Part shown: positions 26,474 through 50,452 of the stretch, one piece after another
Layout of the letters: each line of letters begins with the position of its first letter
How positions within the stretch are numbered: the first letter of the stretch is position 1
Assembly: GCF_003336245.1 (NCBI RefSeq)
Contig: NZ_QPHM01000001.1
Span: 186,001 to 250,000, forward strand
DNA length: 64,000 nucleotides
DNA from: Haloplanus salinus
GTDB lineage: Archaea; Halobacteriota; Halobacteria; Halobacteriales; Haloferacaceae
Direction of reading: 5' to 3'
Notes under the pieces: generated by a model
What the model saw: the letters and a program-made list of their open reading frames with translations, nothing else
The model's database searches: none
Told to the model about the DNA's origin: nothing
Made by a program: the position numbers and the translations under genes

Positions 26474-27073
26474 TCAGCTCTCGGTCGAATCGACCGGGCC
26501 GCCATCCGGCAGTTCTCGGAACGCGACGGTGAAGTCCGCGTCGTCGAACTCCTCGACGGCGGAGTCGAGTTCGCGCTCGATGGCGTCCAAGCGCCGGGTG
26601 AGTTCGGCGTATTCCTCGCTTTCCTCCAGTTCGTGCGGCGTCTTCGCCGCTTCGAGGGTGACTTTCTTTTCGACGAGCTGGAACTTCTCCTGAAGTTGAT
26701 CGTCGTACGAACTCCGGACGACCATTCGTTCGACGGTGTCGACGAGTTCCGGCTGGTCGACCGGTTTGATGAGGTAGTCGTCGATGCCCATGTCCACGAT
26801 GTCGAACCCGGGGTCGACGGCCGTCACCATGACGACACGCACGTCGAGGCCGCGCTCCTCGACGGCGTCGACGACTTCGTCGCCGGAGAGGCCGGGCATC
26901 CGTCTGTCGAGTAACATCACGTCGATGTCGTCGCCGAGTTCCTCGAGCGCTTCAGTGCCGTCGTACGCCGTGTGGGCTTCGGCGAACTCGTCGATCCAGT
27001 AGGCGTACAGGTCCGCGAGCGATTGCTCGTCGTCGACGATGAGTACCGTCGCGTCTGAGAGCGTGGTCGTCAT
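26474..27073 (-). CDS. HalX-domain response regulator
   Basis: The 199-residue protein has an N-terminal receiver domain with acidic pair VDDEQ and the phospho-acceptor at D56 (DVMLLDRRMPG). The switch threonine is in VTAVD and the lysine in YLIKPVDQPEL. A HalX domain follows (VERMVVRSSYDDQLQEKF) with a helical tail (LTRRLDAIERELDSAV). HalX is a haloarchaeal output domain of unknown target. No kinase is adjacent. A TATCG-ATGC-TGATA element 154-167 bp upstream may place it in the motility regulon. Confidence 0.9.
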   Translation of the reverse strand: MTTTLSDATVLIVDDEQSLADLYAYWIDEFAEAHTAYDGTEALEELGDDIDVMLLDRRMPGLSGDEVVDAVEERGLDVRVVMVTAVDPGFDIVDMGIDDYLIKPVDQPELVDTVERMVVRSSYDDQLQEKFQLVEKKVTLEAAKTPHELEESEEYAELTRRLDAIERELDSAVEEFDDADFTVAFRELPDGGPVDSTES

Positions 27074-27226: not shown

Positions 27227-27240
27227 TATCGATGCTGATA
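27227..27240. promoter_or_regulatory. Motility-type palindrome TATCG-ATGC-TGATA (outlying copy)
   Basis: The site fits the TATCA-N4-TGATA pattern with one mismatch. It shares flanks (GTTATC...GATACG) with the copy upstream of arlCE. A TATA-like ACATATGAA at 27204-27212 lies about 25 bp away on the side of the HalX regulator gene. The implied leader would be about 110 bases, so its function is less certain than the others. Confidence 0.4.
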
Positions 27241-27272: not shown

Positions 27273-27710
27273 TTACGCATCGAGAACCGTCGGGCGGACC
27301 CAGATGACGAAGTCGTCCTCGCGTTTGATGACCCCACGGACCGCGTCGTCGCCGTCGTCGACCGGCGACGACTCGACGTCGTCACGGGCGACCTCGACGA
27401 CCTGTTCGACCTCGTCGACGATCCAACCGACGGACTTGCCGTCGGCAGTTCGCTCGCGGTCGAACACCACGATCCGTTTTCGTGCGCCCTCGCCGTCGAT
27501 ACCGAACACGACCGTCGGATCGACGATGGTCGTCGTCTTGCCCCGCAGATCCATCACCCCCTCGACGTGTGGGGGCGAGTTGGGGACGACCGTGAGCTCG
27601 TTCACGTCGACGATTTCGGCGACGTGTGCGATGTCGACCGCGTACGTCCCGTCACCCAGCTCGAACTCGAGGAGTTGGACGGTTCGGCTGCGCGCCGCCG
27701 TCTCGCTCAT
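27273..27710 (-). CDS. cheW: Chemotaxis coupling protein CheW
   Basis: The 145-residue product (start MSETAARSRTVQLLEFELG) is a single CheW SH3-like fold: GTYAVDIAHVAEIVDV, VVPNSPPHVEGVMDLRGK and TTIVDPTVVFGID are diagnostic. It couples transducers to CheA. It is divergent from cheB, and the shared intergenic region contains one palindromic element and TATA-like boxes for both directions. A longer frame beginning 12 codons upstream is less likely. Confidence 0.93.
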   Translation of the reverse strand: MSETAARSRTVQLLEFELGDGTYAVDIAHVAEIVDVNELTVVPNSPPHVEGVMDLRGKTTTIVDPTVVFGIDGEGARKRIVVFDRERTADGKSVGWIVDEVEQVVEVARDDVESSPVDDGDDAVRGVIKREDDFVIWVRPTVLDA

Positions 27711-27807
27711 CGGTTCACACCCCGTTCGACGTCGCATCGGTCCCACGCCCCGTATGACTCCATGTGCGACACGTCGGTCAAATCGGAGTTAAGGGTATTG
27801 GTTGGAT

Positions 27808-27821
27808 TATCCGATCTGATA
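27808..27821. promoter_or_regulatory. Shared cheW/cheB promoter palindrome TATCC-GATC-TGATA
   Basis: The 14-bp element is centred at 27814.5. A TATA-like TATTTATT for cheB is centred near 27838 (about 23 bp to the right). A TTAAGG-type box for cheW is centred near 27791 (about 23 bp to the left). One symmetric site could therefore serve both divergent promoters. The same geometry recurs across the motility island. Confidence 0.65.
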
Positions 27822-27953: not shown

Positions 27954-29033
27954 ATGAGTCGATCGACCCCGCGAGCGGTCGTCGTCGACGACTCACATTT
28001 CATGCGCACGATGCTCTCGGACATGCTCGAAGACGGGGGTGTGACCGTCGTCGACACCGCCACCGACGGCGCCGACGGGGTCACGACCGTGCTCGAGCAC
28101 GAACCGGACGTCGTGACGATGGATCTGCAGATGCCCGACGTCGACGGGTTAGCGGCGGTCGAACGGATCATGGCAGAGCGGCCGACGCCGATCCTCATGC
28201 TGAGTGCCCACACCGCGGACGGTGCCGACGTGACGTTCGAGGCGCTGGAGAAGGGCGCGGTCGATTTCTTCACCAAACCCGGCGGCGAGGTCAGCACCCG
28301 GATGTCGAGCATGGAAGACCAGCTCGTGCGCAAGGTGAAAGCCGTCGCCGGCGCCGACGTGAGCCGCGGTCGGCAGCGGCGGTCGGCGGGGCGCAGATCC
28401 CGATCCCCACCCACGCCCAGTTCGACGGCCAGCGGTGACTATCGGGACGGGGGGACGGTGCTGATCGCCTCCTCGACGGGTGGGCCGACGGTCGTCGAGC
28501 GCGTCGTCGCGGGGCTGCCGCGCGACGCCGACCTCCGGATCATCGTCGTCCAGCACATGCCCGACGCGTTCACCGGGCGGTTCGCCGACCGCCTCGACGC
28601 CGCGAGCGAGTACGACGTGCGGGAGGCGAAAGACGGCGACCGCATCGGCGGCGGCGAGGCGCTCGTCGCCCCGGGCGGCAAACACCTCGTCGTCGCCGGT
28701 GCCGGCGGGGGGCGGCTCCGGACCAAACTGACCGACGACCCGCCGGAACACGGCGTCCGTCCCGCCGCGGACGTGACGATGCGTTCGGCGGCCGAGACGG
28801 TGGACGGCCCGCTCGTCGGCGTCGTCCTCACCGGCATGGGCGCGGACGGTGCCGACGGCGTCCGAGCCATCGACGCCGCCGGCGGCCACGTCATCGCCCA
28901 GGACGAGGCGTCCTCGGCGGTGTTCGGGATGCCCAAACGAGCGATCGAGCGCGGCTGCGTCGACGACGTGCTCGCGGGTGCCGACGTGCCCGACGGGATT
29001 CTCGACGCGATCAGCATGGAGGTCAACGCATGA
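27954..29033 (+). CDS. cheB: Chemotaxis response regulator / protein-glutamate methylesterase CheB
   Basis: The 359-residue protein has a receiver domain (phospho-acceptor D57 in VTMDLQMPDVDG; lysine in FFTKPGG), a basic linker and a C-terminal methylesterase. The esterase triad is visible as Ser in IASSTGGPTV, His in VVQHMPDAFTGRF and Asp in VVLTGMGADGADGV. It removes methyl groups from, and deamidates, transducers to adapt the response. I chose ATG 27954 because homologues start just before AVVVDDSHFMR. The leader is then about 90 bases. Its stop overlaps the cheA start. Confidence 0.96.
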   Translation: MSRSTPRAVVVDDSHFMRTMLSDMLEDGGVTVVDTATDGADGVTTVLEHEPDVVTMDLQMPDVDGLAAVERIMAERPTPILMLSAHTADGADVTFEALEKGAVDFFTKPGGEVSTRMSSMEDQLVRKVKAVAGADVSRGRQRRSAGRRSRSPPTPSSTASGDYRDGGTVLIASSTGGPTVVERVVAGLPRDADLRIIVVQHMPDAFTGRFADRLDAASEYDVREAKDGDRIGGGEALVAPGGKHLVVAGAGGGRLRTKLTDDPPEHGVRPAADVTMRSAAETVDGPLVGVVLTGMGADGADGVRAIDAAGGHVIAQDEASSAVFGMPKRAIERGCVDDVLAGADVPDGILDAISMEVNA

Positions 29034-42178: not shown

Positions 42179-42245
42179 CCGGTCCCTCCCGTCGCCCGAC
42201 AACCCGTCGAACCCATTCTATCGTGTTTCCTATGTCCGTGGCGTA

Positions 42246-42280
42246 CTTTAATCGTTGTCCTCCAGTTATCAGTTTTGATA
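42246..42280 (-). promoter_or_regulatory. arlCE promoter: palindrome TATCA-GTTT-TGATA plus TATA box
   Basis: The palindrome (42267-42280) has perfect 5-bp arms. A TATA-like GATTAAAG (minus strand, 42246-42253) is centred 24 bp downstream of the palindrome centre in the direction of arlCE. Transcription would begin near 42224, 46 bases before the ATG. The element matches the other motility promoters. Confidence 0.7.
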
Positions 42281-44096: not shown

Positions 44097-44456
44097 TCAG
44101 GCCACGACGTCGTCGATTGCTTCCAGCACGTTCGGCTTCTGGAACGGTTTCGTGATGTAGCCGTCGGCTCCGGCCTTCACGGCGTTTTTCATCTTCTCCT
44201 CCTGGCCGACGCTGGTACACATGATGACGTTCGCGTCGGGGTCGCCCCCCGTGATCTCGCTCGTCGCTTCGATTCCGTCACGGATCGGCATCACGATGTC
44301 CATCATCACCAGGTCGGGATCGTGCTCCCGGTAGAGTTCGACGGCCTCGACGCCGTTCTCGGCTTCACCGACGATCTCGAAGTTCTCTTCGAGGATTTCG
44401 CGCAGAAGGTTGCGCATGAAATCCGAGTCGTCGACGAGTAGCACTTGCGGTGGCAT
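44097..44456 (-). CDS. cheY: Chemotaxis response regulator CheY
   Basis: The 119-residue single receiver domain has VDDSD at the N-terminus, phospho-acceptor D53 (VMMDIVMPIRDG), the switch threonine in IMCTSVGQ and the lysine in YITKPFQK. CheY-P acts on the motor via CheF and reverses archaellum rotation. Its promoter has a palindrome and a TATA-like box. The predicted start lies within a few bases of the ATG, hence nearly leaderless. Confidence 0.96.
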   Translation of the reverse strand: MPPQVLLVDDSDFMRNLLREILEENFEIVGEAENGVEAVELYREHDPDLVMMDIVMPIRDGIEATSEITGGDPDANVIMCTSVGQEEKMKNAVKAGADGYITKPFQKPNVLEAIDDVVA

Positions 44457-44482: not shown

Positions 44483-44516
44483 GATAAAGACTCGGGCGCG
44501 ATTCTCAGTACTGATA
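44483..44516 (-). promoter_or_regulatory. cheY promoter: palindrome TCTCA-GTAC-TGATA plus TATA box
   Basis: ATTCTCAGTACTGATA at 44501-44516 is identical over 16 bases to the copy upstream of the DUF7521 gene at 47322-47337. The palindrome centre (44509.5) is about 24 bp from the TATA-like CTTTATC (minus strand, 44483-44489). The predicted start is about 44460, just before the cheY ATG. Confidence 0.75.
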
Positions 44517-45224: not shown

Positions 45225-45974
45225 TTACAGCTCGACGGATTCCTCGCCGGACAGTGACTGGGGCACCTGGATGCGGATGATGCTCGTCGCGCCGGATTCG
45301 GTGTTGACGCGGATGGTCGCGGTGTCGCCGGGTTCTAGCGGCCCGTTGACGAACCCACTGTTGACGGCTTTGACGAGGTCGAGCGATACGACCAACCGGT
45401 CGGTTCGGCTGTTCAGGATCAGGCCGTTGCCCCGACTCTCGTTGAGCGAGTCGTCGTCGTCCTGGAGCGTCCGGGTCCGGTCGTCCGGGCCGGTCGAGTC
45501 GGTCTTGTTGACGACCGTCTCGTTGGTGAACGCGTAACGGTCGGTGCCGTCCGGCCCGACGAACTCGAACGTGGTGGCGCTCATGTTGATGTCGCTCGCC
45601 CCCGGTGACTTCTGGACCACCATCGATATCTCGTTCACCGCGAGCGACTGGTTGGTCGCCGAGAGGTTTTCGCCGCTGCCGGACTCAACCCCGACTATCG
45701 TGGCGTTATCGTCATCGGGGCTCACGACATTACCATTGGAGCTGTTGATATACGTGCTGTTGTACACCGAGACGTTCCCGGTCTTCGAGACGGGTTCGAG
45801 CCGATCCGTCACTTGCGAACTACTCTGTTGACCGGTCTGTTCTGACTGCGTCTGAAGGAAGCCGGCGGTATTGATGAGGACGCCGGCCGCGATCGCCGCG
45901 ACCAGGACCATCGCGATGAACACGATGAGCGTCCCAATACCGACCTGTCCCCTGTCCGTTCGTTCTTCGAGCAT
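45225..45974 (-). CDS. arlA2: Archaellin (second copy)
   Basis: The 249-residue filament protein has a class III signal peptide ([14 protein letters not shown], cleaved after the glycine-containing RGQVG segment) followed by the hydrophobic polymerisation helix ([20 protein letters not shown]). Several N-glycosylation sequons are visible ([24 protein letters not shown]). It is nearly identical to the upstream archaellin at both ends and differs in the central outward-facing part. I set the start at ATG 45974. Confidence 0.95.
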
Positions 45975-46033: not shown

Positions 46034-46068
46034 TATTAAAGTTATACCTGAAAATATCATCGATGAAA
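46034..46068 (-). promoter_or_regulatory. arlA2 promoter: palindrome TATCA-TCGA-TGAAA plus TATA box
   Basis: The palindrome (46055-46068) has one arm mismatch. A TATA-like CTTTAATA (minus strand, 46034-46041) is centred 24 bp from it. The predicted start is near 46012, giving a leader of about 38 bases, close to that of arlA1. So the two archaellins have separate but equivalent promoters. Confidence 0.65.
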
Positions 46069-46127: not shown

Positions 46128-46844
46128 TTACAGCTCGACGGATTCCTCGCCGGACAGTGACTGGGGCACTTGGATGCGGATGATGCTCGTCGCGCCGGAT
46201 TCGGTGTTGACGCGGATGGTCGCGGTGTCGCCGGGTTCTAGCGGCCCGTTGACGAACCCACTGTTGACGGCTTTGACGAGGTCGAGCGACACGACCAGCC
46301 GGTCGGACCGGCTGTTCAGGATCAGGCCGCTGCCTTGGCTCTCGTTGAGCGAGTCGTCGTCGTCCTGGAGCGTCCGGGTCCGGTCGTCCGGTCCGGTCGA
46401 GTCGGTCTTGTTGACGACTGTCTCGTTGGTGAACGCGTAACGGTCGGTGCCGTCCGGCCCGACGAACTCGAACGTGGTGGCGCTCACGTTGATGTCGCTC
46501 GCACCCGGTGACTTCTGGACCACCATCGATATCTCGTTCACCGCGAGCGACTGGTTCTCCTTCGAGAGGTTCGCTGAAGACTCGGGCACGATCGTCGTGC
46601 TACTCCCCGACACCGACTCGTTGGTGCTGTTGTACACGGAGACGTTCCCGGTCTTCGAGACGGGTTCGAGCCGATCCGTCACCTGTGCACTGCTCTGTTG
46701 ACCGGTCTGTTCTGACTGCGTCTGGAGGAAGCCGGCGGTATTGATGAGGACGCCAGCCGCGATCGCCGCGACCAGGACCATCGCGATGAACACGATGAGC
46801 GTCCCAATACCGACCTGCCCCCTGTCCGTTCGTTCTTCGAACAT
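46128..46844 (-). CDS. arlA1: Archaellin (first copy)
   Basis: The 238-residue protein begins [14 protein letters not shown], the class III signal peptide, and continues with the same polymerisation helix as arlA2. Its central part ([18 protein letters not shown]) differs and is shorter. Sequons for N-glycosylation are present ([17 protein letters not shown]). It is the first filament gene from the promoter side. I set the start at ATG 46844, rejecting a longer frame to 46931. Confidence 0.95.
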
Positions 46845-46905: not shown

Positions 46906-46939
46906 AATAAAAGTACCTTCTTAGATATCACCGATGATA
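46906..46939 (-). promoter_or_regulatory. arlA1 promoter: palindrome TATCA-CCGA-TGATA plus TATA box
   Basis: The palindrome (46926-46939) has perfect 5-bp arms. A TATA-like CTTTTATT (minus strand, 46906-46913) is centred 23 bp from it. The predicted start is near 46884, leader about 40 bases. Geometry equals that of arlA2, arlCE and cheY. Confidence 0.72.
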
Positions 46940-46989: not shown

Positions 46990-47271
46990 TCAGTTGTAGA
47001 TGATGAGGCTGTAGACGACGAGGATGAATCCCAGCGACGAGAGGCCGTTATTGACCAGTAGGAGCGACCGGACGCCCTCGAAGTTCGTGACGAACGCGCT
47101 GATTGCCGTCGCGATGGCGGCGGCGGCGATGAGGCCGAATCCGAGCGAGACGTGGATCATCGCCCGGCGGGAAGTTTGGAGGTACGCCCTGATCGCCATA
47201 CCGACCATCGTCAGCCCGGAGACGACTAGCACGGCCGTGGCGGCTACATACAGATATTCGACGACGAGCAT
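46990..47271 (-). CDS. Small membrane protein (DUF7521-like)
   Basis: The 93-residue protein has three membrane helices ([52 protein letters not shown]). It resembles the haloarchaeal DUF7521 family, which is often encoded beside small ArsR-type regulators. Here the divergent neighbour is such a winged-helix gene. Function unknown; the palindrome upstream places it in the motility regulon. Confidence 0.75.
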
Positions 47272-47300: not shown

Positions 47301-47337
47301 AAATATAAACCTGGGCACGATATTCTCAGTACTGATA
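47301..47337 (-). promoter_or_regulatory. DUF7521 promoter: palindrome TCTCA-GTAC-TGATA plus TATA box
   Basis: The palindrome (47324-47337) lies in a 16-base sequence identical to that upstream of cheY. A TATA-like GTTTATATT (minus strand, about 47301-47310) is centred 25 bp away. The predicted start is about 47280, near the ATG at 47271. Confidence 0.7.
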
Positions 47338-47397
47338 TTCCACTGTCGACCCCTCGTCTTGCACGCGTCCGACGGTACATTTTATTGTGCTCCCCCG

Positions 47398-47411
47398 TAT
47401 CTGAACTGATA
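47398..47411. promoter_or_regulatory. Palindrome TATCT-GAAC-TGATA on the winged-helix gene's start site
   Basis: This copy is downstream, not upstream, of the TATA-like TTTTATT at about 47380-47386. It covers the predicted transcription start (about 47408) and ends 5 bases before the ATG at 47416. That is repressor geometry, in contrast to the activator-like positions elsewhere. It suggests feedback control of the winged-helix gene. Confidence 0.65.
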
Positions 47412-47415
47412 ACGA

Positions 47416-47754
47416 ATGGATGGGATCGAGATGCTTCGGGTTCTGGGCAACGAGTACAACCCGCAGATACTGAGCTTCGCCCACGAACCACGGTCGGCCC
47501 AGGAACTCAGCGACGAACTCGACGTACCGATCGCCACCTGCTACCGTCGGATCGAGGAACTGCAGGATGCGGACCTGCTCGAACACCACGACCGGGTGTT
47601 GTCCGACGAGCGGCGGCGGGTCAACGTCTACCGTCGAAACATCGAGGAGGTCGTCGTGCGCTTCAGCGAGGGGGGCGTCTCCGTCGAGGTGGAGGAGCGC
47701 CGACAGGTCAAAAACCAGATCGACGAGGTCTGGCGAACGCTCTCCTCGGAGTGA
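47416..47754 (+). CDS. Small winged-helix (ArsR-like) transcription regulator
   Basis: The 112-residue protein has a clear winged helix: LRVLGNEYNPQILSFAHEPR, SAQELSDELDVPIATCYRRI (recognition helix in VPIATCYRRIEEL) and a wing with LLEHHDRVLSDERRRVNVYRR. The C-terminal part is short and helical (VEERRQVKNQIDEVWRTL), suited to dimerisation. It is the only classical DNA-binding regulator encoded in the motility island. Its own start site is overlapped by the shared palindrome, so it is the best candidate for the protein binding that element. This is an inference. It abuts the convergent KaiC-like gene with no spacer. Confidence 0.85.
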   Translation: MDGIEMLRVLGNEYNPQILSFAHEPRSAQELSDELDVPIATCYRRIEELQDADLLEHHDRVLSDERRRVNVYRRNIEEVVVRFSEGGVSVEVEERRQVKNQIDEVWRTLSSE

Positions 47755-48489
47755 TCACTCGCCGGGGAACGGGCCGTCGCGCTGGCCCATCATCGAGAAG
47801 CCGGCGGCGCGTTCGTGGACGGTGATCCCCCCGTCGGTGATGTCCATGGGGAAGATGTCCGTCTCGATGTCCTGTTTTCGCATCTTCGCGACCCAAATGT
47901 ACCGGTTGACACCGGATTCGGTCGGCGTCTGGATCACATAGATGTTTCCGTCGGTGAGGAAGTTTTCGAGGCCGATGTCCTGCTCCGGGAAGACGGCCGA
48001 CTGCTCCGCGATGAGCAGCGAAGTCAGTCCGTTGGCCTTCAGAATGTCCGAGAATTTGAGCAGATACGTCCGTTTCTCCTGTTCGTCCTCAAAGAACAGT
48101 TCGAACATCGTCAGCGAGTCGAGGACGAGCCGTTCGTACTCCATCTCCTCGAACTCCTCCAACAACAGTTCCAGCGTGTCGTTGAAATCGTTGTGGCGGA
48201 GCAGTTCCTGCTTGTCGTAGATGAGTATCTCGTCTTCTTCGACCAGTTCGCGCCAGTCGTCGAAGCCGATGGATTCGGCTGCCTGGGCGATGTCCTCTCG
48301 ATTCTCCTCGAAGGAGAGGTAGATTCCCTTCTCGTCGAACTCCCGAACGCCGTTGTAAATATACTGCAACCCGAGAATGCTCTTCCCGGTACCGGGGTTT
48401 CCGCTGATCAAGACGGTCGCGTTGTCGACGATACCCCCACCGAGGATCGAATCGAGTCCCTCGATGCCGGTGCGTGTGAGCTCAGTCAT
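47755..48489 (-). CDS. Single-domain KaiC-like ATPase
   Basis: The 244-residue RecA-superfamily protein has Walker A GNPGTGKS at residues 30-37, a KaiC-like acidic pair in SFEENREDI, and a Walker B-like YERLVLDSLTMFELFF. Single-domain KaiC-like proteins (Cir family in haloarchaea) have been linked to light/clock gene expression and to motility control. It is divergent from the second KaiC-like gene and convergent with the winged-helix gene. A TATA-like box (AATTTATT, about 48518-48525) lies upstream but the palindrome is absent. Confidence 0.9.
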   Translation of the reverse strand: MTELTRTGIEGLDSILGGGIVDNATVLISGNPGTGKSILGLQYIYNGVREFDEKGIYLSFEENREDIAQAAESIGFDDWRELVEEDEILIYDKQELLRHNDFNDTLELLLEEFEEMEYERLVLDSLTMFELFFEDEQEKRTYLLKFSDILKANGLTSLLIAEQSAVFPEQDIGLENFLTDGNIYVIQTPTESGVNRYIWVAKMRKQDIETDIFPMDITDGGITVHERAAGFSMMGQRDGPFPGE

Positions 48490-48587: not shown

Positions 48588-48623
48588 TTTCACGCGTGAG
48601 AACCCGGGCGCAACCTATTTCAT
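48588..48623 (+). promoter_or_regulatory. Second KaiC-like operon promoter: palindrome TTTCA-CGCG-TGAGA plus TATA box
   Basis: The element (48588-48601) fits the TNTCA-N4-TGANA form and contains the perfect 10-bp palindrome TCACGCGTGA. A TATA-like TATTTCAT (48616-48623) is centred 24-25 bp downstream. The start is predicted at about 48645, so the mRNA would be leaderless. Confidence 0.6.
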
Positions 48624-48645: not shown

Positions 48646-49350
48646 ATGAGGCTTTCCACCGGGGTGGACGGTTTCGACGAACTCGTCGACGGGGGACTCC
48701 TCCGGAATCGGCTGTACATTCTCAGTGGCCCTCCGGGCAGCGGGAAGACGACCTTCTCCTCGCAGTTCGTCACGGAAGGGGCGCGGGTGGGCGAAAAATG
48801 CCTCTTTCTGAGCATGCACGAGACGGAAGCCGAGTTGACCCACGACATGGGCGCTTACGACTTCGGCTTCGAGAAGGCTGCGCAGTCGGGGAACTTCCAG
48901 TTCAGGAACGTCTTCGACTCGAACGCCAAGCGACTGTTGAAAGGCCCCGGCGGCAACGACTTCTCCACCGGCGTCAAGAACATGACAAACCGGCTAGTGG
49001 GGTTTATCAACTCCCGGGAGATCGACCGTTTAGTCATCGACTCCACGATGATCCTGCAGTACTTTTACCCCGACAATCACGAGGCGTTCGTCCAGTTTCT
49101 CACCTCGCTCAAACGCGTCGACGCGACGACCATCCTGATCTCGGAGATGACCGATCCGACGTCATACGCGGACGAACACTACCTCGCCCACGGCGTCGTC
49201 TTCATGCACAACTACATGGAGGGCGACGGGATGCGGCGCGGCGTCCAGATCATCAAGATGCGCGGAACGGACATCGACAGCGACATCTACCCCGTCGACT
49301 TCGACGACGACGGCCTGCACGTCCGCCCCAAGCGCAAAGTCGAGGCCTGA
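48646..49350 (+). CDS. RecA/KaiC-like ATPase (Rad55-type)
   Basis: The 234-residue protein has Walker A GPPGSGKT at residues 28-35 in LYILSGPPGSGKTTFSSQ, a conserved SMHETEAEL, and a Walker B-like IDRLVIDSTMILQYF. It resembles KaiC-like/'HTR-like' regulators found near archaellum genes. Paired with the gene two bases downstream. Its promoter carries the shared palindrome. It may modulate motility gene expression or ArlH-like complexes. Confidence 0.87.
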   Translation: MRLSTGVDGFDELVDGGLLRNRLYILSGPPGSGKTTFSSQFVTEGARVGEKCLFLSMHETEAELTHDMGAYDFGFEKAAQSGNFQFRNVFDSNAKRLLKGPGGNDFSTGVKNMTNRLVGFINSREIDRLVIDSTMILQYFYPDNHEAFVQFLTSLKRVDATTILISEMTDPTSYADEHYLAHGVVFMHNYMEGDGMRRGVQIIKMRGTDIDSDIYPVDFDDDGLHVRPKRKVEA

Positions 49351-49766: not shown

Positions 49767-50393
49767 TTACGCCGCCTCGTCGCCGTCCGCTCGCATCAAC
49801 TCCCCGGGTTCCGTCCAGATGACGAACTCGCCGTCGTCCTCGCGTTTGACCACACCGTTGATCCACGGTTCGTCGACCGGGGACTCCTTGACCGCCGAGA
49901 GCGAGACGGTCGAGACGCGCCGGACGCCGTCGACGGCCCACCCGACGCTCCACTCGTCGTCCATCCGCGCCGAGTCGAAGACGACGATCAGTTCGCCCGC
50001 GCCCTCGCTGTCGGTCGCCAGCGTCTCCATCGGGTCGATGACCGTCGTGATGTCGCCCCGGAGGTCGATGACGCCCTCGACGAACGCCGGGGCGTTGGGG
50101 ATTCGCGTGACTGCCCCCCGTTCGACGATCTGTTCGATGAAGGTGATATCGAGGCAGTACCGCTCGTCACCGAGGACGAACTCCAGGACCGAGACGGTCT
50201 CGTCGTCGTCGCCGGTGCCGGCCGACGGGTCGTCGGGGGTCGCTCTCTCTCCCTCCTCTGCGACGTCGTCGATGGCGGCCGCGACGGACGCCGCGGCGTC
50301 GGACGTGTCGATGCCCTCGACGGCTGCGATCATCTCCTCGTCCAGCTCCGGCGCGTCGGCGCTAGCGTCCGACTGCGCGGTCGGATCGGTCAT
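49767..50393 (-). CDS. cheW2: Chemotaxis coupling protein CheW, second copy
   Basis: The 208-residue protein has an acidic 65-residue N-terminal extension rich in Asp/Ala, then a CheW domain: VLEFVLGDERYCLDITFIEQI, RIPNAPAFVEGVIDLRGDIT and a closing EFVIWTEPGELMRA (each abbreviated from the family motif). It may couple a different transducer set from cheW1 or compete with it. Its promoter carries the palindrome 24 bp from a TATA box, and the mRNA is predicted to be leaderless. Confidence 0.92.
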   Translation of the reverse strand: MTDPTAQSDASADAPELDEEMIAAVEGIDTSDAAASVAAAIDDVAEEGERATPDDPSAGTGDDDETVSVLEFVLGDERYCLDITFIEQIVERGAVTRIPNAPAFVEGVIDLRGDITTVIDPMETLATDSEGAGELIVVFDSARMDDEWSVGWAVDGVRRVSTVSLSAVKESPVDEPWINGVVKREDDGEFVIWTEPGELMRADGDEAA

Positions 50394-50416: not shown

Positions 50417-50452
50417 GTAATAAACCCGACCGCCGGGTTCTCAGGCGTGATA
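50417..50452 (-). promoter_or_regulatory. cheW2 promoter: palindrome TCTCA-GGCG-TGATA plus TATA box
   Basis: The palindrome (50439-50452) lies 24-25 bp from a TATA-like GTTTATTAC (minus strand, 50417-50425). The predicted start is near 50396, three bases before the ATG. It has one arm mismatch like the cheY copy. Confidence 0.65.

Follow-up and report, generated by a model that had tools for sequence, protein, structure and literature searches.

Haloarchaeal archaella now have a known regulator, CsmR. In Haloferax volcanii (HVO_1209; PLoS Genet 2026) it switches both swimming and cell shape, and its motif from chromatin immunoprecipitation sequencing (ChIP-seq) is TATCA(N4)TGATA, found near arl and che promoters (PMC13286277). 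The published deletion phenotype is paradoxical: the csmR deletion strain is non-motile and overexpression leads to hypermotility, yet arl and che transcripts rise, rather than fall, in the deletion; activation by CsmR at the bound promoters was inferred by its authors too (PMC13286277). The csmR transcript is stable in H. volcanii, and the main text of the CsmR paper makes no mention of csmR autoregulation, feedback or the gene's own promoter; binding of the motif by the protein and a non-motile deletion have been shown in H. volcanii only (PMC13286277). Here we describe a gene for a 112-residue winged-helix protein from Haloplanus salinus, which we assign as a csmR ortholog, together with a palindrome that lies on its start, in a stretch of 64,000 nucleotides (contig NZ_QPHM01000001.1, positions 186,001 to 250,000; 'the window'). 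The recurrence of this palindrome in related promoters, and its absence from Haloferax, suggests a previously undescribed self-limiting feedback loop.

Phr of Pyrococcus furiosus, a regulator of the heat-shock response that is also a repressor of its own gene, is the nearest solved structure to the csmR product (PDB 2P4W); however, it has about 200 residues, is 24% identical over the aligned part and has other targets. TrmBL1 of P. furiosus and Thermococcus kodakarensis has a similar palindrome, TATCAC-N5-GTGATA, and activates from upstream of the TATA box but represses from downstream of it (PMC4706686). In the TrmBL1 promoter itself the motif is present in T. kodakarensis and absent in P. 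furiosus (PMC4706686), a close parallel to CsmR. TrmBL1 differs in being sugar-responsive, whereas the window protein, of 112 residues, has only a weak, sub-threshold match to the TrmB helix-turn-helix (HTH) domain. EarA of Methanococcus is likewise a winged-helix archaellum regulator, acting beside the transcription factor B (TFB) recognition element (BRE), but it has no sequence or structural similarity to CsmR according to the CsmR authors, whose statement sets it apart (PMC13286277).

The window csmR product contains an HTH_20 domain (Pfam profile search, E 3e-10) and is 91% identical to its Haloplanus ruber counterpart. The homolog in the csmR position of Haloferax sulfurifontis returns it as a clear best match (63% identity, 1e-40; next match 1e-10), and the best match is reciprocal. 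Its neighbours are archaellin genes and a KaiC-like gene whose product is 67% identical to that of the KaiC-like gene that follows arlA2 in Haloferax, the position of cirA (PMC13286277), and TATCA(N4)TGATA lies near the TATA boxes of arl and che genes. Because of the reciprocal best match and the synteny with archaellins and cirA, we assign the gene as the ortholog of H. volcanii CsmR. The two loci share the orthologous protein, the palindrome, the arl/che targets and the arlA and cirA neighbours; they differ in that Haloferax csmR is without the start-site palindrome found in the window. An earlier note on this DNA had proposed the small winged-helix gene as the regulon's regulator, and the orthology, the agreement of the palindrome with the CsmR ChIP-seq motif and the non-motile H. 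volcanii deletion all bear this out.

It can be seen that TATCTGAACTGATA matches 9 of the 10 arm positions of TATCA-N4-TGATA. It spans -18 to -5 relative to the csmR ATG, ending 5 nt 5' of it, and starts 11 bp downstream of the TATA-like box TTTTATT. With the usual haloarchaeal TATA spacing from this box, the csmR transcript would begin inside the right arm or just past it, and so the predicted transcription start lies under the palindrome; the note's claim that the palindrome sits on the gene's start holds in this sense, but not for the start codon, which it does not cover. A regulator's own site over its own predicted transcription start is the arrangement of an autorepressor with a start-site operator. 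When the csmR intergenic region was subjected to 20,000 dinucleotide shuffles, 0.08% of them placed a site of at least 9/10 matches within its last 24 bp. With up to three mismatches allowed, the window contains the 14-mer 9 times (0.49 expected), and 0 of 100 shuffles reached 9, the count taking in both strands so that palindromic sites enter twice. The distance from TATA to palindrome is 12-17 bp in most orthologs that have the start-site copy. The palindrome of the divergent DUF7521 gene was also considered as an activator site for csmR and rejected: the TATA box at its +14 is that of the DUF7521 gene itself, and more than 40 bp separate the palindrome from the csmR TATA.

Conservation was scored with a weight matrix built solely from target-type sites (palindrome with a TATA box at +14), sites no more than 25 bp from the csmR start being excluded. 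We compared 71 non-redundant ortholog promoters (75% identity filter) with 1306 control starts, 128 of them with a TATA box nearby. At 8 bits, a match at -21 to -16 was present in 48% of csmR promoters against 0.54% of control starts, and in none of the 128 control starts with a TATA box nearby; at 12 bits the figures were 17% and 0.08%. The half-site [TC]GATAA occurred between -14 and -1 in 63% of csmR promoters and 0.46% of controls. Within the same csmR promoters the -21 to -16 region reached 0.479, as against 0.127 or less in any other 7-bp offset window, and the runner-up (0.127) falls near -87, where target-type sites of the divergent genes sit. The sole control start with at least 10 bits, in Haloferax gibbonsii, proved to be an antisense open reading frame (ORF) that overlies a genuine target-type site oriented the other way, and matches near 8 bits in the AT-rich promoters of family f14 were not trusted. 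Orthologs are not independent samples, and the identity filter and the occurrence in three families (below) reduce, but do not remove, the effect of kinship. We conclude that, as judged from promoter sequences, the start-site palindrome at csmR is conserved, a feature new here.

The placement of the palindrome on the csmR start recurs in three haloarchaeal families (f1, f4 and f17). Full palindromes at -17 to -20 are found in Haloplanus, Halolamina, Halegenticoccus, Halobium, g6, g10 and g51, and also in Halorubrum-type genomes (g2; genus name assumed), and the separate family f17 has a full palindrome at exactly -18 (TATCAAAGTCGATA and TATCAAACCCGATA). Halobellus lacks the start-site copy but carries a palindrome-like site further upstream, at about -64 to -71. 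Several Haloarculaceae have an added palindrome at about -49 that ends 2 bp before the csmR TATA and lies over the BRE, a possible second position for autorepression; this copy was seen at loci L096, L107, L109, L110, L111 and L195. The protein tree, of 112 columns, does not decide between gain and loss of the site. A sister winged-helix clade in f7, f6 and f3, away from archaellins, has a conserved element of its own, ATTCA-N4-TGATAA, some 32-37 bp upstream of the annotated ATG (L177-L180, L183, L185-L189, L199, L200).

Target-type sites follow a different rule. For each of the eight other palindromes in the window, the gap to the TATA-like box that follows is exactly 14 bp (Table 1), which sharpens the note's claim that all copies other than that at csmR lie upstream of TATA. 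Between the divergent cheW-like and cheB-like genes, TATCCGATCTGATA has a TATA-like box 14 bp off on both sides (TTTATT on the plus strand, CTTAAC on the minus strand), and this single site may serve both promoters. The window and 80 related loci together contain 309 sites with at least 9/10 arm matches. TTTA[TA] stands at exactly +14 in 172 of these; a minor class (9/309) has it at +2, and the remaining offsets are near background. Palindrome, 14-bp gap and TATA box together give about 34 bp, the motif length reported for CsmR. A pattern search elsewhere in the same genome located distal target-type sites upstream of two globin-coupled transducer genes and of genes for a type IV pilin, a T2SSF protein, a DUF7344 protein and a histidine kinase. 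The strict +14 spacing holds at targets but not at csmR.

Table 1. Positions of csmR, its proposed operator, target-type palindromes and neighbouring genes in the window.
Feature	Position	Strand	Basis or remark
Palindrome TATCTGAACTGATA, proposed auto-operator	47398..47411	+	sequence, shuffling, conservation in orthologs
TATA-like box TTTTATT of csmR	47380..47386	+	sequence; TATA spacing in orthologs
csmR ortholog, 112-aa winged-helix regulator	47416..47754	+	ORF, Pfam, reciprocal best match, synteny, AlphaFold model
KaiC-like gene, cirA ortholog	47755..48489	-	convergent with csmR
DUF7521 membrane protein gene, divergent from csmR	46990..47271	-	ORF list, Pfam
Palindrome of divergent DUF7521 gene	47324..47337	-	14 bp upstream of TTTATA
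Palindrome TATCATCGGTGATA of archaellin gene 46128-46844	46926..46939	-	14 bp upstream of TTTATT
Palindrome TTTCATCGATGATA of archaellin gene 45225-45974	46055..46068	-	14 bp upstream of TTTAAT
Palindrome TATCAGTACTGAGA of cheY (44097-44456)	44503..44516	-	14 bp upstream of TTTATC
Palindrome TATCAAAACTGATA of 485-aa arlC/E-like ORF ending upstream at 42202	42267..42280	-	14 bp upstream of ATTAAA
Palindrome TATCACGCCTGAGA of cheW (49767-50393)	50439..50452	-	14 bp upstream of TTTATT
Palindrome TATCCGATCTGATA between divergent cheW-like (27273-27746, -) and cheB-like (27954-29033, +) genes	27808..27821	+	
Palindrome TATCAGCATCGATA upstream of HalX response regulator gene (26474-27073, -)	27227..27240	-	14 bp upstream of TTCATA

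A weaker candidate site, TTTCACGCGTGAGA (48588-48601), precedes a second KaiC-like gene (48646-49350, +) and is followed after about 14-15 bp by an AT-rich box. The gene for the small DUF7521 membrane protein has a target-type site and neighbours csmR in most families, including f7b, and its product is possibly part of the motility system. At 47754/47755, csmR and the cirA ortholog converge with zero bases separating their stop codons; a read-through transcript of csmR would be antisense to the 3' end of cirA, compare hvo_1211s in H. volcanii.

CsmR was filed under Lrp/AsnC by its authors (PMC13286277). All of 18 orthologs had the ArsR-like HTH_20 domain, and one showed a weak AsnC-type HTH; Pfam detected no RAM (AsnC_trans_reg) domain in these 18 orthologs, and there were no Lrp proteins within the 50 best Foldseek fold matches of the csmR AlphaFold model (predicted local distance difference test score, pLDDT, 91). 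The nearest solved structure, Phr (Foldseek E 2e-5), was likewise found as a structural match by the CsmR authors (PMC13286277). The TrmB HTH scored 22.1 bits against a Pfam curated cut-off of 25.6, and with its 112 residues the protein does not fall in the TrmB family. The Lrp/AsnC placement of CsmR is not supported by these domain and predicted-fold comparisons.

We propose that TATCA-N4-TGATA is bound by CsmR, probably in dimeric form. Where the site lies exactly 14 bp upstream of TATA and beside the BRE, as at the promoters of archaellum, chemotaxis, pilus and transducer genes, the protein could help to recruit TFB; at the csmR promoter, where the site follows the TATA box and covers the predicted transcription start, bound protein would block loading of RNA polymerase. 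Rising CsmR would then shut csmR down and its own level would be held steady. Since a site over the start should hinder polymerase loading, and since TrmBL1 acts by position, position-dependent negative autoregulation, with CsmR predicted to bind and repress its own promoter, appears to be the best reading. We consider it reasonably probable that the model is correct as a whole, that is, a CsmR ortholog, upstream sites at targets and negative autoregulation through the start-site palindrome. More tentative is the wider proposal that CsmR is a position-coded dual regulator whose conserved negative-feedback operator is absent from the Haloferax/Halobellus lineage and to which some Haloarculaceae add a BRE-overlapping copy; this we put forward as plausible and somewhat doubtful.

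Several observations weigh against negative autoregulation combined with activation of targets. The support for autoregulation at csmR is comparative-genomic throughout, and the start-site copy was absent from the csmR promoters of Haloferax, Halogeometricum, Halobellus, f7b, f10 and f12. In Haloarculaceae it is chiefly the half nearest the ATG, TTTGATAAC, that is preserved, the distal arm being degenerate, as would suit a promoter or leader element (an initiator-like GATAAC before the ATG) that is an operator look-alike only. However, the half-site is rare before other genes (the 0.46% above, and 0/128 starts with TATA), and full dyads with conserved arms and variable spacer occupy this same position in both f1 and f17, so that we think a leader element very improbable. 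We give as little credence to binding of the csmR start, and control of csmR, by a different winged-helix protein that shares the DNA preference of CsmR. The genome does have related small winged-helix genes, among them a 36%-identical paralog on contig C3, and the sister clade in f7, f6 and f3 has its own similar element, ATTCA-N4-TGATA; but CsmR is the sole protein shown to bind the motif (PMC13286277), and the paralog is far more diverged.

The rise of arl and che transcripts in H. volcanii ΔcsmR (PMC13286277) speaks against simple activation, and because of it CsmR may carry either regulatory sign at arl and che. The rise would fit a CsmR that represses everywhere, arl and che from the site next to BRE/TATA and itself from the start palindrome, the non-motility of the deletion being post-transcriptional. 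We regard this as unlikely, though by no means negligible: overexpression is hypermotile and deletion non-motile (PMC13286277), and the 14-bp spacing leaves room for BRE and TATA, the usual position of an activator as in TrmBL1 (PMC4706686). The earlier note had the protein repress its own gene and activate the other promoters. Autoregulation is favoured by the conserved start-site palindrome in ortholog promoters but would not be universal, Haloferax lacking the auto-site; activation fits the fixed upstream position but not the increase at bound promoters in the deletion.

The exact 14-bp rule from palindrome to TATA separates target sites from the self-site and makes the regulon readable from any haloarchaeal genome. 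Haloferax, the genus where CsmR was studied, is without the start-site palindrome found here, and a conserved self-operator that is absent there predicts different circuit behaviour in most other haloarchaea. If the proposal is true, the Haloferax model would run its motility switch without this feedback loop, while other haloarchaea would clamp CsmR.
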